Shown one piece after another: positions 15,953-20,950 of a stretch of 20,950 nt of DNA (its first letter is position 1; every line of letters starts with the position of its first letter). The DNA lies in IMG/VR virus record IMGVR_UViG_3300050025_000103, positions 1 through 20,950 of that record, one strand, 5' to 3'. The notes beneath the pieces were generated by a model that saw only the letters and a program-made list of their open reading frames with translations, was not told the DNA's origin and did not search any database. Both the position numbers and the translations under genes were made by a program. The DNA comes from a virus.

Positions 15953-16501
15953 TTATGCCGTAATGCGCTTCTGATCTACCATTGCTTTGCCGATGTTAGG
16001 GCCTGTGTCGGGTAGGATTTGACTGGCCAACGCTTCTCCTACATCTGGGTCAAGCATTTCTTCTCCTGGCGCTAAACCCCAACTTGCTGCCGTTGCTTCT
16101 TTCAGCGCCTCTTCTCGCAGCTTTTGTAGCATAGCCTTACCTTCCGCCATCTGATTTTGCTTATGCTCTGCGTCTGATCCTGGCTCTACTACTTTTGCTT
16201 CTTGCTCTGACTCCTCTTTGGCGCCTTTGATTCGTACGCTGAATGTTGAAATGATTAGAGTAGCCAAAGCTTCTACGTTCTTGTCCTGATCTACAAATAC
16301 AAGCTCGTCTTCTTCCCCCTCTTTTACTTCGATACGCTTAGGTCCCAGTTCAAAGGCTCCACTGATTAACTCACACAGCGGCACGAAAGCAGTTAGGTTG
16401 CCGGCGTTGATTATTTGCTTTGAACATGCCGGGCACCTATTCGTACTTATGGCTGATTTGAAGGCCTTATTTATTTCTACTTGACAGTTTTGACACTTCA
16501 T
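15953..16501 (-). CDS. Zinc-ribbon protein with acidic helical tail
   Basis: A 182-residue protein with AGGAG 6 nt before the ATG. The first 32 residues form a zinc ribbon, with CQNC at 3-6 and CPAC at 23-26, followed by a small domain (LTAFVPLCELISGAFELGPK) and a long Glu/Ala/Lys-rich helical region, with a Gly/Pro/Asp-rich end (PGEEMLDPDVGEALASQILP). Zinc ribbons of this type occur in many phage regulators and replication accessory proteins; none is specific. It is separated by 9 nt from the HNH endonuclease gene. Confidence 0.8.
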   Translation of the reverse strand: MKCQNCQVEINKAFKSAISTNRCPACSKQIINAGNLTAFVPLCELISGAFELGPKRIEVKEGEEDELVFVDQDKNVEALATLIISTFSVRIKGAKEESEQEAKVVEPGSDAEHKQNQMAEGKAMLQKLREEALKEATAASWGLAPGEEMLDPDVGEALASQILPDTGPNIGKAMVDQKRITA

Positions 16502-16510
16502 TTGCTTCTC

Positions 16511-16828
16511 CTATTTAGTTTTGGCACCTTTGGCCAGGTTCTCCTTGGCCCACAATGGTTGTAGATTGGTATAGTGGCAGGCTGCTCTAAACTGACCTAC
16601 ATCTGTTAGGTCGAAAGAGGCCAATGGTTTAATGTGATCAATATGCCAGCCCCAAAACCCGTAGTTGCCCCAGGTCATCTTTTCTCCCGTAGCCCTATCG
16701 TAGAAGAATGATTCAATGTGGATCATAAACTCCTCTTTAGAGCAACCTATGGCCTTCGTTATTGAATCTATCTTGACTATACGCGCACTCTTGATGAATA
16801 AACGAGTTCTATTACGTATTGCCCTCAT
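16511..16828 (-). CDS. HNH endonuclease
   Basis: About 105 residues from the ATG at 16828 (a GTG at 16840 is also possible). The N-terminus (MRAIRNRTRLFIKSARIVKI) and the middle (AIGCSKEEFMIHIESFF, MTWGNYGFWGWHIDHI) are the usual arrangement of small phage HNH nucleases. The catalytic core is WHIDHIKPLASFDLTD, then CHYTNLQPLWAKENLAKG, with His-Ile-Asp-His as the first HNH histidine motif and Asn in YTNLQPLW. Such enzymes nick or cut DNA and often act as free-standing homing endonucleases or packaging helpers. Here it is next to a fractured, intein-rich polymerase locus, so homing is the likelier role. The start overlaps the stop of a 19-codon ORF (ATGA). Confidence 0.9.
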   Translation of the reverse strand: MRAIRNRTRLFIKSARIVKIDSITKAIGCSKEEFMIHIESFFYDRATGEKMTWGNYGFWGWHIDHIKPLASFDLTDVGQFRAACHYTNLQPLWAKENLAKGAKTK

Positions 16829-16884
16829 GACTCTAAACACCGTATCATTTTGACTCCGGCGCAGATCTTGGTTTTAACTGCCAT
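16825..16884 (-). CDS. 19-residue leader-like ORF before the HNH gene
   Basis: The ATG directly follows the TAG of the RHH gene (TAGATG), with GGAGG 8 nt upstream, and the TGA overlaps the HNH start. The product is MAVKTKICAGVKMIRCLES. The 'KTKICAG' start resembles small phage zinc proteins, so this may be the broken front of a gene invaded by the HNH element, or a coupling leader. Too short to prove. Confidence 0.35.
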   Translation of the reverse strand: MAVKTKICAGVKMIRCLES

Positions 16885-17052
16885 CTACTCACCCTCCCTT
16901 TGCTTCCTGAAAAATTTGAGAGCAGTTATACATAGAGAAGATATGCTGCGATCCTCTTCTTCGGCTTCCTTTTTGATCCACTCGATTAGTTCCTTGTGCT
17001 TATCCTTGTCGAAGTTGATTGACATTACATACGCTTGACCCTTTTCACCCAT
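16885..17052 (-). CDS. Ribbon-helix-helix (Arc/CopG-like) regulator
   Basis: I start this 55-residue protein at the ATG at 17052 because AAGGAG lies 7 nt upstream; an ATG at 17097 in the same frame lies inside the inverted repeat with no site. A short strand (QAYVMSINFDK) is followed by two helices (DKHKELIEWIKKEAEEED and SISSLCITALKFFRKQRE), the order and size of a ribbon-helix-helix DNA-binding dimer such as Arc or CopG. These usually repress their own gene by binding an inverted repeat, and a perfect 17-bp inverted repeat sits exactly over this gene's ribosome binding site. The HNH gene lies downstream. Target is inferred. Confidence 0.72.
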   Translation of the reverse strand: MGEKGQAYVMSINFDKDKHKELIEWIKKEAEEEDRSISSLCITALKFFRKQREGE

Positions 17053-17059
17053 GAAAATA

Positions 17060-17108
17060 CTCCTTATAATATGGGCACAATGAAGTGATACGCCCATATT
17101 ATAAGGAG
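17060..17108 (-). promoter_or_regulatory. Perfect 17-bp inverted repeat over the RHH gene ribosome binding site
   Basis: On the minus strand, CTCCTTATAATATGGGC (17108-17092) and GCCCATATTATAAGGAG (17076-17060) are exact complements around a 15-nt loop. The 3' arm ends with the AAGGAG ribosome binding site of the RHH gene, and the 5' arm carries the matching CTCCTT. In RNA this is a stable hairpin hiding the site; in DNA it is a likely operator, and the arms also contain TATAAT. There is no U-tract after it, so it is not an ordinary terminator. Confidence 0.85.
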
Positions 17109-17109
17109 C

Positions 17110-17122
17110 AATATTAGTAGAT
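17110..17122 (-). promoter_or_regulatory. 13-mer shared with the IF3/left-module gap
   Basis: ATCTACTAATATT on the minus strand, directly after the dnaE-C stop and 1 nt before the inverted repeat; identical to 4949-4937. In both places a TAATATG element follows within about 6 to 8 nt. Possible phage-specific promoter element or operator. Confidence 0.35.
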
Positions 17123-17123
17123 C

Positions 17124-18185
17124 CTACTCAGTAATATCCATTAATATCAAGTTCTTGCTTCCGCTCCACTCATTAACACCGCAAATTGCTTTGAATGGTT
17201 TTCCGAGAATCAATCTATGTTTGTGCTTAAGCCAGTTTTCGCTCCAAACAGTAAGCGTAATGGAATCTCCCTGTATATCGGTTATTGTAACCCGGGCAAA
17301 TGGTTTCCCTTTGCTTTTTCCCGAGCGGAACTTGCTTTCTTCTATGTTTGACACTACAGCCTCTATTTTTATTTGCTGCTTGTCTGGCATATTCTTCACG
17401 CGGTTAAATAATACACCACTTTGCGTGAAAAAGTTGGGATAGACCTCGTTGATAGTACCCGATATGAACTCGCCCAGCACCTCATTCTCGGCTTGTAAAA
17501 ACTCTGGCCGGCTCCACTCCTCATTGAAATCTGGACACTCGAACTCAAACCCACTCGTACAGTAGATCTCGTCAAGGCCCTGCTCCAACTTTGCGTCTCC
17601 ATACTTATTTACTCGCTGCCTGATATCCTGGTAGTAAGTAAAGGCCGACTTACGCGTGATGCCCAAACAATCAAACGCACCAGATTTTGCCAGCGCTTGT
17701 ATCGAGTCCTTCTTTACTTTTGAAGACTCCGTGCGATACAAGAAGTCAGCAAAAGACTTAAACTTATGCTTATCGCGGGCCTTAAAGATACTGCCGGCCG
17801 CACTTTCACCTAAACCTTTCACTGCTGTTAGTCCTACAATCAACGTCTTATCGTCTACCAAGTTGTAAGATTCACCACTACGATTGATATCTGGTGCTAC
17901 AATGCTCAAACCTAATCGCTTGGCTTCACGTTTATAGATTCTGATGTTTGAATCACGGTCTTGTCCATTCCCATCTACTTCTGACTTCAACAACGCACAC
18001 ATAAAAGCTGCCGGGAAGTAATGTTTGTAGTAGGCCGTATGATAGCCATTGATTGAGTAAGCTATCGAGTGTGAGTTAGATGTAAGCAAGCCATTAGCCA
18101 AATAGAACTGATGGTCTGGATGGTCTACTTCAAGATCATAGCACTGTTCACTGCCTATATACTTAACGCTTGTAATCTTCGCCAT
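17124..18185 (-). CDS. dnaE: DNA polymerase III alpha, C-terminal fragment led by split intein C-half
   Basis: The 353-residue product starts at the ATG at 18185, with GGGAG 5 nt upstream. Residues 1-37 (MAKITSVKYIGSEQCYDLEV to FYLANGLLTSN) are a DnaE-type split intein C-half: block F, then block G ending Ser-Asn. Extein starts with Ser38 in SHSIAYSINGYHTAYYKHYF, the polymerase segment that follows FNK in normal DnaE. The tandem helix-hairpin-helix region follows (LTAVKGLGESAAGSIFKA), then an OB-fold domain (EAVVSNIEESKFRSGKSKGK, ARVTITDIQGDSITLTVWSE). A tau-binding C-terminus is absent. Alone it is not a polymerase; it must be joined to the upstream fragment by protein trans-splicing. It overlaps the endonuclease gene by 23 nt. 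A 'start' at 18212 would only add residues without a better site. Confidence 0.93.
   Translation of the reverse strand: MAKITSVKYIGSEQCYDLEVDHPDHQFYLANGLLTSNSHSIAYSINGYHTAYYKHYFPAAFMCALLKSEVDGNGQDRDSNIRIYKREAKRLGLSIVAPDINRSGESYNLVDDKTLIVGLTAVKGLGESAAGSIFKARDKHKFKSFADFLYRTESSKVKKDSIQALAKSGAFDCLGITRKSAFTYYQDIRQRVNKYGDAKLEQGLDEIYCTSGFEFECPDFNEEWSRPEFLQAENEVLGEFISGTINEVYPNFFTQSGVLFNRVKNMPDKQQIKIEAVVSNIEESKFRSGKSKGKPFARVTITDIQGDSITLTVWSENWLKHKHRLILGKPFKAICGVNEWSGSKNLILMDITE
18075..18185 (-). other. Split intein, C-terminal half (37 residues)
   Basis: Codons 1-37 of the dnaE C-fragment. Length and layout match the C-halves of cyanobacterial DnaE split inteins (about 35-36 residues): a Met start, YDLEV in block F, FYLANG, and terminal Asn37 followed by Ser as the +1 nucleophile. 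The penultimate residue is Ser rather than the commoner His; DnaE split inteins often lack His there too. Confidence 0.9.
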
Positions 18186-19149
18186 ATTTACTCCCAAACA
18201 AGTATAGTCCATTTTTAGGATTCAGCAATAGCTCTTTAATCAAATCAAGTAAGTCATTCTTGAAGTTCTCGATGTTGTAGAAATAACAATCATACGACAC
18301 TCTTATGATACAGTACCTGTCTTGTAATGAGTTAATCTCGGCATCTTTGCGCTTCTTGCTTTCAAAGTCTTCATCGCCAAATATGCTCTCAAAGTGTAAA
18401 GGCCCATCAAACTCGACAATAATAGACTTACTCCCACTGAATATGTCGATTTGCCTCCGTTTGGTTTTGGTCGTAAAGATGTCGTCGGTAAGAAAGTGGC
18501 TTTTACAGTCTGACACGATACACTTACAGAAAGCAAGCAAAGACTTCTCTGGCCTACTCTTCCAGTTGCTCAATAGTGGCTTTACACACTTCTCATAGTG
18601 CTCTTCGGGATGGTCTTTAACCCATTTAGCCAAAACGTTTCGACCATTTCGCATTATCTTTTGAAAGGCCTCTGGGTTCTCGTCTCTCCATCTTTGAAGC
18701 GCGGCAGACCTATTATCTTGAACGTCTTTCCGTGCTGATGTCTTGATTGCTGTTTCTGAGGCCTTCTTGCGAAAGGCATCAGTTTTGTTTAGAGTTCCGA
18801 GGGCCTTGGATCGTCGCTCGCGCTCATCCTTGTCCGCCATAATGGTTTTGGATATTTTCTCGCCAGCTGCTGCTCTTATACGCTTGATTCTCTCTGGATC
18901 GCGTTCCATAGACTTCTTAAACCCTTCCTGCGACGTTTCAGATCTTTGGTTGCGACGAAACTCTTTGAACACCTCACAAGTCTTTCTATGAATCTGTAAA
19001 CTTCTCTTGCTTTTGGGACAGTCAAACTTCTCACCACATTGGCATTCAAATACCTTGGGCGTATACAAATCACACCATCTCGCCTTGTGTATCACCAAGC
19101 TTTTCTCTGTACCAAACTCTTTGCCGCATTTACATACAAACAATGTCAA
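18163..19149 (-). CDS. Free-standing homing endonuclease, Vsr-like (EDxHD-type)
   Basis: A 328-residue product from a TTG at 19149 (or a second TTG at 19143) after AGGAGG. Two N-terminal zinc fingers have CxC-x12-H-x4-C spacing at 6-26 and a similar CQCG...HRKTC at about 36-58. The middle (about 65-190) is very basic with repeated short helices (RIRAAAGEKISKTI, RSKALGTLNKTDAFRKKA, RSAALQRWRDENPE), as in NUMOD-type DNA-reading segments. The C-terminus (about 200-300) is a Vsr/EDxHD-like nuclease: RPEKSLLAF, RRQIDIFSGSKSIIVEFDG with Asp and Glu-x-Asp, PLHF with His, and IIRVSYDCYF. It overlaps the intein N-half gene by 20 nt and the intein C-half gene by 23 nt, so it sits exactly in the break of the polymerase. 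It probably cuts intein-free dnaE alleles. Confidence 0.85.
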   Translation of the reverse strand: MTLFVCKCGKEFGTEKSLVIHKARWCDLYTPKVFECQCGEKFDCPKSKRSLQIHRKTCEVFKEFRRNQRSETSQEGFKKSMERDPERIKRIRAAAGEKISKTIMADKDERERRSKALGTLNKTDAFRKKASETAIKTSARKDVQDNRSAALQRWRDENPEAFQKIMRNGRNVLAKWVKDHPEEHYEKCVKPLLSNWKSRPEKSLLAFCKCIVSDCKSHFLTDDIFTTKTKRRQIDIFSGSKSIIVEFDGPLHFESIFGDEDFESKKRKDAEINSLQDRYCIIRVSYDCYFYNIENFKNDLLDLIKELLLNPKNGLYLFGSKYGEDYKR

Positions 19150-20950
19150 GCCCCTCCTCGAATATCTGCTTTATCGGCAACATACGCCCATCAGATACTC
19201 TAAACTTATGATCCATAGAGCACTTTACCTGAATCCCAGTGTCAAGCGTAAACTCGAACACTTCTTTGGCTCCATTATCGTGAACACCTTTGATGGGCAC
19301 GAAGATCTGCTCTTTTGTTAGTTCATCTCTGCTGCGCACAAAATCTCCCTCTGTATGGCTATCAAACAAATCCCCTATGGTGGTCCTTCTACATATTACA
19401 CCGTTCGCATCAAAAACATCAATGCTTTCATCTTTATATAGGCAGGCGTTAAACCCGTAGCCGGCGAAGGGCTCAACTACATCTACCCAAATCTCCTCTG
19501 CCTGATTCACTGTTGTCTTGCTTACTTTACAGGCATCAGTTATAAACTCTAACTTCAATCTCTCGGCCAACTCAGGATTCTTGCCTTTGAGTTTTGTTAG
19601 TTTGCGAAGACCATCTGCTTTATTTAAGTCCCAACCAGCTACTGTATTTGCCAGTTTCATCAGTTGCTCTTCATACACTCCTACGCCCAAAGTAGATTCA
19701 AGTGCCGGCCGAAGACACTCATGCTTAAACTCAATAGGAACACGCCCATCTCTGCGGCCAATGTATATATCACGACTCTTGGCAGCACTTGGACGGCCCA
19801 AAGCATTCACCAAACTCAAATCCTCAATACACTTGGGTTTGATTTTTTTACACAGCTCTATCATATGTGGCGAACCCATCTGAAACACGCCCAAAGTACG
19901 ACCCTTTGCTACGTCTGCCCAAACTGCCGCGTCATCTAAGGGAATGTCTTTTGGCTCTGGACACTTTTGGCCCAGCACTCCGGCATTCTTCAAGGTATCG
20001 GCTACTATGCTAAGATGCTCTATTACCAGCAAGTCCATCTTAATCAGGCCCACTTCTTCACACCGATTCTTCTCATATTGAACTGCTACCGCTCCGTTCT
20101 TGTCTATGCGAAGTGGAAGGAAAGTACTTAAATCCGTGTCGCCTATTATCAGACCGGCCGCGTGGGTTGCGTAGTTTTTCTCCAACCCTATAAGTTTCCG
20201 GCCATACTCTTCCAACTGCGGATACTTAGCGCAGGCCTCACGGAACTCTTTGGACTCGGCAAGAGCGTCATCAAAAGACACATGAGGACGTAATGCTGTT
20301 GCTGCCGGTATTGTGTCTGTGATTCGATTAGCTATTTTAAATGCCTCAGACTTCGAACCACCCAGCTCCAAACTACGCGCTATGTCCTTAATCGTCACTT
20401 TTGGCGTCATAGTACTTAGGTTGGATACGTGAGCTACATTCTTTTCGCCGTACTTTTTGATTAAATACTGCTCAACCCAATCACGCCCTACTGGATCCAT
20501 ATCGGTGTCTATGTCGGGGAATGCTTTCTTCTCCTTATTGTGAAAGCGTTCGAATAGTAGGTCATACTGTATAGAATTAACGTCGTGTATGCGTAGCAAG
20601 TAAGCTACCAAAGATCCAGCTACACTATTATGTACTACCCCATTGGTTGTAAGGTATGAGTGGTCGTCTTTTACTTGAAGATCATACACCTTACTGACAC
20701 CATTCGTATATGTTTTTCCCATAATCGGTGAAAAGTATCCATTACCGAAGTCGAGTTCTGATCGGGCCGGTCGAGTACTTAGGCCATGAAACTTGATCTT
20801 ATAGCTCTCGTTACACCGATATTTGCCACGCATAAATGGTTTGCGAGTTGATACGGACGACTTAATGCCAAGATACAGCAACGCCTCCTTAGTCTCCAGC
20901 ATTAGTCGTTTGCTCGTAGTATCAATACTCTCACGATAATCATCCTTCTC
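19130..20950 (-). CDS. dnaE: DNA polymerase III alpha, N-terminal fragment with two inteins (5' end off window)
   Basis: The frame is open to the right edge; the ATG at 20902 is internal, inside an intein. From right to left: the C-end of a LAGLIDADG-type intein (to 20627), then 394 extein residues, then the N-half of a split intein to the stop. The extein opens with SVAGSLVAYLLRIHDVNSIQ, the family motif after GRG, followed by PDIDTDMD with the first catalytic aspartates, LIKMDLLVIEHLSIV with the third, the finger-like region VGVYEEQLMKLANTVAGWDL, and VVEPFAGYGFNA just before the split intein. This is the palm and finger part of a bacterial replicative C-family polymerase; the PHP domain would be outside the window. 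The FNK lysine of the usual motif is Ala here. Confidence 0.94.
   Translation of the reverse strand, partial: EKDDYRESIDTTSKRLMLETKEALLYLGIKSSVSTRKPFMRGKYRCNESYKIKFHGLSTRPARSELDFGNGYFSPIMGKTYTNGVSKVYDLQVKDDHSYLTTNGVVHNSVAGSLVAYLLRIHDVNSIQYDLLFERFHNKEKKAFPDIDTDMDPVGRDWVEQYLIKKYGEKNVAHVSNLSTMTPKVTIKDIARSLELGGSKSEAFKIANRITDTIPAATALRPHVSFDDALAESKEFREACAKYPQLEEYGRKLIGLEKNYATHAAGLIIGDTDLSTFLPLRIDKNGAVAVQYEKNRCEEVGLIKMDLLVIEHLSIVADTLKNAGVLGQKCPEPKDIPLDDAAVWADVAKGRTLGVFQMGSPHMIELCKKIKPKCIEDLSLVNALGRPSAAKSRDIYIGRRDGRVPIEFKHECLRPALESTLGVGVYEEQLMKLANTVAGWDLNKADGLRKLTKLKGKNPELAERLKLEFITDACKVSKTTVNQAEEIWVDVVEPFAGYGFNACLYKDESIDVFDANGVICRRTTIGDLFDSHTEGDFVRSRDELTKEQIFVPIKGVHDNGAKEVFEFTLDTGIQVKCSMDHKFRVSDGRMLPIKQIFEEGLDIVCM
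19133..19444 (-). other. Split intein, N-terminal half (104 residues)
   Basis: It begins with Cys1 (CLYKDESIDVFDANG) right after FNA of the polymerase and ends at the gene's stop. Block B is QVKCSMDHKFRV with the conserved His. GVHDNGAKEVFEFTLDTGIQ and DGRMLPIKQIFEEGLDIV follow the pattern of cyanobacterial DnaE N-halves (102-123 residues). No endonuclease domain is inside; the gene stops where a canonical split intein breaks. Confidence 0.92.
20627..20950 (-). other. C-terminal part of a second, LAGLIDADG-type intein
   Basis: The last 108 visible residues end VYDLQVKDDHSYLTTNGVVHN followed by Ser, with intein blocks F and G and a His-Asn terminus. Upstream, IDTTSKRLMLETKEALLYLG then IKSSVSTRKPFMRGKYR is the usual C-terminal subdomain of a LAGLIDADG homing endonuclease. 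The intein sits before the Ser of GRG(S)xAGSLVAY. Its start is outside the window, so I cannot tell whether it is continuous. Confidence 0.88.

Follow-up and report, generated by a model that had tools for sequence, protein, structure and literature searches.

A viral dnaE gene broken within an intein, with a putative homing endonuclease gene in the break

The window, by which we mean the whole stretch of DNA analyzed here, is the complete IMG/VR record IMGVR_UViG_3300050025_000103 (20,950 bases) and is probably a fragment of a virus genome. Its dnaE gene lies entirely on the minus strand, as do all of the dnaE features described below, and exits the contig at the right end. Read along that strand, the gene presents the remnant of an upstream intein, the N-extein, an intein N-half, a stop codon, an endonuclease open reading frame (ORF), an intein C-half, and the C-extein. 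The N-extein, present in part (19445-20626), matches Pfam DNA_pol3_alpha (3e-48) and DNA_pol3_finger (5e-34); it carries the catalytic palm (FPDIDTD, KMDLL) and the fingers up to ...FAGYGFNA and can be aligned with the uninterrupted dnaE genes of relatives L137-L140. After the extein residues ...AGYGFNA comes a 104-amino-acid intein N-half (19133-19444), which begins with CLYKDESIDV, thereby placing Cys at position 1, contains KCSMDHKF as its block B, and is followed directly by the stop codon of the N-terminal ORF (19130-19132).

The endonuclease ORF (18163-19149; 328 amino acids) starts at TTG 19149 and overlaps the N-terminal ORF by 20 nucleotides (nt). A Shine-Dalgarno sequence, AGGAGG, lies within the codons of the intein N-half (19153-19158), 3 nt ahead of this TTG and 9 nt ahead of an in-frame alternative start, TTG 19143, for which the spacing is better. 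The 37-amino-acid intein C-half (MAKITSVKYIGSEQCYDLEVDHPDHQFYLANGLLTSN; 18075-18185) has its own ATG at 18185, with GGAG 5 nt upstream (18191-18194), and opens a C-terminal ORF (18185-17124) that overlaps the endonuclease ORF by 23 nt (ATGGCGAAGATTACAAGCGTTAA); an alternative start at 18212, which would lengthen this ORF, lacks both a Shine-Dalgarno sequence and conservation. The C-half terminates in LLTSN, and the C-extein (17124-18074) begins next with SHSIAYS and continues through a helix-hairpin-helix (Pfam HHH_6, 2e-24) and an OB fold to the stop codon, remaining alignable to the very end of dnaE in L137-L140. The two halves are separated by 0.9 kb, with the endonuclease gene in between, at the site YGFNA/SHS (the slash marks the insertion point). 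A first-pass annotation had described a polymerase gene that stops after a 104-residue intein N-half, an endonuclease ORF in a frame overlapping by 20 nt, and resumption from a 37-residue C-half with a 23-nt overlap; our coordinates confirm all of this to the base.

Both intein halves carry recognizable splicing motifs. In a phmmer search of the PDB, the nearest solved relatives of the N-half were the cyanobacterial DnaE split inteins (E value of 3e-13), and the intein could also be aligned with relatives from ~45 loci. Across this alignment, position 1 is C, S, or T, block B has the form [DNHS]H[KR]F in nearly all sequences, and block F, the terminal SN, and Ser +1 are kept. Most of the ~45 new natural split pairs have Ser, not Cys, at position 1. 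In the C-half, VDHPDHQFY..NG.LTSN was invariant in the first nine loci, and the half has its own start codon across loci, preceded in most by a Shine-Dalgarno sequence; in the window, Ser takes the place of the intein's penultimate His. The ratios of nonsynonymous to synonymous substitution rates (dN/dS) in close pairs, some of which were saturated, ranged from 0.06 to 0.39 in the N-half, from 0.01 to 0.12 in the C-half, and from 0.12 to 0.35 in the endonuclease, which indicates that purifying selection acts on both intein halves and on the endonuclease.

Queried alone, the window endonuclease matched no usable Pfam or PHROGs family, gave only chance-level matches in a PDB sequence search, and as a single query against viral contigs retrieved nothing; its relatives were reached only by family alignment. 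An AlphaFold2 model based on a 34-sequence alignment (pLDDT of 85) predicts an N-terminal zinc finger or fingers, a helical linker, and a C-terminal nuclease of the Vsr/PD-(D/E)XK fold. The best PDB match of this model in Foldseek was the Vsr mismatch endonuclease 1cw0 (probability of 0.97, E value of 0.03), and its viral fold matches include homing endonucleases; I-Bth0305I was neither a direct sequence match nor the top-ranked fold match. A search with the family profile hit the Ros zinc finger 2jsp (1e-4), and 24 of the 34 family members match Pfam ROS_MUCR. Within the alpha/beta nuclease domain (residues 199-325; 18175-18555), P200, D235, D248, G249, H252, D269, and R283 are invariant among the 34 homologs, and E201 and E246 are nearly so. 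Judged by fold and family conservation, the protein has a Vsr-like fold and conserved E, D, H, and D residues, as expected of a Vsr-related (EDxHD) nuclease. The first-pass label of "Vsr-like" therefore holds at the level of fold but finds no footing in the sequence alone, and the model and profile together support a Vsr-like fold to which a Ros/MucR-like zinc finger has been added. Distant free-standing relatives of the endonuclease, without inteins, occur in L090-L135 (e.g., L090:5761-6558), where they share a conserved neighborhood consisting of an ORF of ~150 amino acids, the endonuclease of ~265 amino acids, and an ORF of ~255 amino acids.

The same arrangement recurs in other viruses. 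A search with the C-half found eight viral loci, seven of which had an endonuclease homolog in the same gap. After the census was widened by searches with the C-half and endonuclease alignments and duplicates were removed, ~36 viral loci besides the window had the same N-half/endonuclease/C-half order at this dnaE site, with an endonuclease of the same family; three loci (L016, L033, and L034) had other endonucleases, ~10 were split without an intact endonuclease, and three (L013, L022, and L088) had both halves in one ORF, although the pattern search was biased to intein-bearing loci and these counts are not frequencies. The census contigs derive from ~40 metagenomes. Among bacterial genomes, the sole match was a 3-kb contig binned as Thioploca. 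A blastn search of phage records with the DNA of the locus gave no match, and tblastn searches of phage records with three different endonucleases found none, so that phage collection holds no isolate with this endonuclease.

What occupies the gap varies among the relatives. Split halves have been kept despite endonuclease loss in L011, L014, L017, L018, and L029. Scars of the endonuclease ends can be recognized next to intact intein halves in L029 (9e-8), L014 (1e-6), L017 (2e-5), and L018 (3e-3), and L136 retains both ends of a deleted L016-type endonuclease (5e-18 and 4e-12), again with intact halves. Other endonucleases sit in the same split-intein gap at L016:5998-7998, L034:6932-8005, and L033:2832-3827 (PHROGs 559 and 3339). 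In L013, a sister of the fractured L010, the halves lie in one ORF joined by a short linker, forming a cis mini-intein. In L088 (5430-6863), the dnaE-intein ORF (1,793 codons) stays open across a Vsr-family endonuclease gene lying in another frame: this overlap contains 0 stops in 243 codons, compared with a mean of 13.9 in synonymous shuffles of the endonuclease, and zero was never reached in 5,000 shuffles. The L088 endonuclease thus appears to be nested by overlap, not by fracture.

Uninterrupted alleles and signs of transfer were also found. In L137-L140, which are the closest relatives of the window C-extein (42-54% identity), dnaE is a single unbroken ORF of 1,137-1,142 codons, and the empty site reads YGFNK followed by SHS, AHG, or PHG. 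The predicted spliced product of the window aligns with these proteins through to the end, and neither an insertion nor a deletion interrupts it at the splice point. When L061 (5762-7154) was compared with L087, the synonymous divergence (dS) of the N-half, endonuclease, and C-half was 0.09-0.22, whereas that of both flanking exteins was 0.88-0.98; sliding identity was also computed along the cassette and its flanks. The low divergence of the cassette points to a recent transfer of the whole unit, as homing predicts. In a quick dnaE tree, the insert states alternate among the branches, which takes at least 16 changes, and the window dnaE groups with four empty alleles; its intein is nearest to those of L026 and L059, in another part of the tree. 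In the intein tree, Npu is a single cyanobacterial sequence on a long branch, and its placement is unusable.

Since the three ORFs lie in differing frames, the locus is not a LAGLIDADG-type bifunctional cis intein, in which an in-frame endonuclease would be part of one precursor. Instead, an enzyme gene with uninterrupted relatives is broken within an intein into separate ORFs, both intein halves bear splicing motifs, and a free-standing endonuclease ORF with its own frame and ribosome-binding site stands between them. The likeness to the "fractured gene" arrangement suggested by the first-pass annotation, here in a replicative polymerase, is thus borne out by both the anatomy and its recurrence. 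Based on the anatomy, its conservation, the uninterrupted alleles, the signs of selection, and the cassette transfer in a relative, we consider it very probable that a homing endonuclease gene has broken this phage dnaE inside its intein, so that three proteins are made, two carrying trans-splicing halves and the third acting as the mobility factor. A single transcript would be translated into three products: DnaE-N carrying the N-half, the endonuclease on its own, and DnaE-C preceded by the C-half. The halves would come together as a single HINT domain and trans-splice, using Cys1 and Ser +1 as nucleophiles, to yield one unbroken DnaE (...AGYGFNA-SHSIAYS...). During mixed infection, the endonuclease may cut the intein-less FNK/SHS site in the dnaE genes of other phages, and repair of the cut gene could then copy the entire cassette across.

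Several observations weigh against this account. The start codon of the endonuclease is TTG, and its target is only predicted. The residue immediately preceding the splice site is Ala in the window (FNA) and in L017, but Lys or Arg in most relatives (FNK); the activity of the spliced window DnaE is therefore not certain. On an informal comparison, the window intein is also mosaic relative to its dnaE (the extein is nearest to intein-less L137-L140, the intein to L026 and L059), which would fit mobility.

The rival that survives best, although we judge it improbable, is that the dnaE pieces stay unligated and work as a non-covalent two-subunit polymerase, with the intein halves as decaying relics. 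Unligated split enzymes that work do exist, such as a ribonucleotide reductase in pieces that was split by a free-standing endonuclease (Friedrich et al., as cited in PMC10448857). The Ser in place of the penultimate His in the window would suit a relic as well, but the remaining splicing residues are kept in ~45 divergent loci, and the dN/dS values, particularly those of the C-half, argue for purifying selection. The halves also survive loss of the endonuclease, and in L013 they have been re-fused in frame. Furthermore, the TSN at the end of the C-half resembles the ASN of Npu DnaE, a fast splicer that likewise lacks the penultimate His.

Less probable still is that a programmed frameshift takes ribosomes from the N-half into the endonuclease frame, possibly continuing into the C-half, such that a full-length precursor would also splice in cis. 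As this explanation would have it, the endonuclease is in the minus 1 frame relative to the N-half in ~30/36 loci, many of which show an ORF overlap of ~100 nt. In most relatives, however, a candidate start codon for the endonuclease, ATG or GTG, stands exactly 10 nt ahead of the DHKF codons and is itself preceded at 8-10 nt by GGAG. Internal initiation at this fixed place explains those loci, and we therefore set frameshifting aside. Conservation of the ATG or GTG is itself only suggestive of a start signal, because constraint on the protein likewise tends to place A or G at the end of the codon preceding Cys. The window departs from its relatives in having the plus 1 frame, shared with L002, L004, and L031, and AGGAGG with TTG toward the end of the N-half. 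Visual inspection revealed no conserved slippery heptamer. That frameshift errors have artificially split a cis intein whose endonuclease domain was in frame is the least credible explanation: the window is a single contig with overlapping frames at both junctions, but the occurrence of both minus 1 and plus 1 arrangements with dedicated starts and Shine-Dalgarno sequences speaks against such errors, and assembly error is strongly disfavored because the same break is present in ~36 independent contigs from ~40 separate metagenomes.

Some relatives have more than one break in dnaE. In L009 (2-9083), three split inteins divide the gene into four ORFs, and each gap contains an ORF; L077 (55-7739) also has four ORFs, L008 (1336-9128) has at least five, and L005:3517-8505 is among the loci with three to five or more. 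The breaks in these four loci are bordered by intein N- and C-halves, and several of the gaps contain an endonuclease-sized ORF. Together with the loss, swap, and overlap of endonucleases and the re-fusion in L013, these loci raise the idea, to which we give about even weight, that phage dnaE is a hub of repeated and reversible fracture, in which a split intein with a Vsr-type endonuclease gene in its gap would be the usual state, a polymerase may be assembled from four or more polypeptides via three or more split inteins (L009, L077, and L008), and split inteins lacking an endonuclease, such as the cyanobacterial DnaE pair, may be end states. Split inteins are protein-engineering tools, and the origin of the endonuclease-less cyanobacterial DnaE split inteins is an evolutionary puzzle. 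With a related DnaE intein, four residues away, present in endonuclease-split, -swapped, -deleted, overlapping, and cis forms, the order of events should be traceable. The ~45 new natural split pairs and the genes with three or more split inteins are also candidate orthogonal trans-splicing tools.

Other features of the window lie in or next to the broken gene. The upstream intein is a second one in the same dnaE; its C-terminal part (20627-20950), cut by the contig end, matches Pfam Intein_splicing at positions 56-92 of the ORF; it lies at a GRG/S site and ends in ...TTNGVVHN, after which the extein continues with SVAGSLV. L004 has a full copy at the same site with LAGLIDADG-like motifs, and by homology the window intein is probably a LAGLIDADG-type cis intein. 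A small ORF adjoining dnaE (16511-16840) has an endonuclease VII/HNH match (phrog_1035, 6e-9) and is a candidate mobile nuclease. A group I or II intron was ruled out in positions 16500-20950, where there was no Rfam match up to an E value of 1, and promoter-like sites were no more numerous than chance would give (7 found versus 7.7 expected).

In 2009, Dassa et al. (NAR 37:2560) reportedly described, from ocean metagenomes, fractured genes that combine split inteins with free-standing endonucleases: the break is at the usual endonuclease position of the intein, the halves have ~100 and 37 amino acids, and a Vsr-related endonuclease ORF lies in between. The window resembles these Dassa-type genes in the position of the break, the size of the intein halves, and the separate endonuclease ORF of Vsr-related type between them; it probably differs in its host gene, which encodes a DnaE polymerase and is interrupted at FNK/SHS, and it differs in that its endonuclease has a putative Ros/MucR-like zinc finger and overlaps both neighbors. 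PMC3653736 gives nrdA and nrdJ as fractured cases from the 2009 study. Among phage polymerases, polB of the jumbo phage MIJ3 is interrupted by a split intein that encloses an HNH endonuclease (PMC6892783), and in T4-like Aeromonas phages the two halves of the Aes123 PolB1 split intein were shown to trans-splice (PMC11923092). Like the window, both are two-piece phage replicative polymerases with a naturally split intein, and MIJ3 also has an endonuclease gene in the break; unlike the window, they are family B polymerases interrupted at another site, and the MIJ3 endonuclease is HNH, not Vsr-fold. Since these PolB cases are published (PMC6892783 and PMC11923092), the window is not the first fractured phage polymerase; text searches of a partial literature collection found no fractured dnaE. 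The group I intron endonuclease I-Bth0305I (PMC3943268), of the EDxHD type, resembles the window endonuclease in that a phage PD-(D/E)XK-like catalytic domain is tethered to a separate DNA-binding region (PMC3943268).

The DnaE cis mini-inteins of the Rhodococcus phages Peregrin, Trina, and NiceHouse occupy the same FNK/SHS site as the window intein, but their ORF is continuous across the intein, they have no endonuclease, and their sequences are distant. In Peregrin (L141:776-4559) and Trina (L143:793-4571), dnaE is annotated as two overlapping ORFs owing to an intein-less break elsewhere, and in NiceHouse, of the same genus as Trina, it is one ORF. The cyanobacterial DnaE inteins (Npu and Ssp) share with the window the host protein, the split position within the intein, and a C-half of 36-37 amino acids, which in Npu ends in SN. 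In contrast, they have a different insertion site, Y/CFNKSHS, which lies four residues upstream of YGFNK/SHS, lack an endonuclease, and have halves far apart on the chromosome; the window, with adjacent halves around an endonuclease gene, falls outside this class. The fractured gene in a DnaE polymerase therefore belongs to a known class, and what is less expected is the endonuclease turnover and multiple fracture among its relatives.

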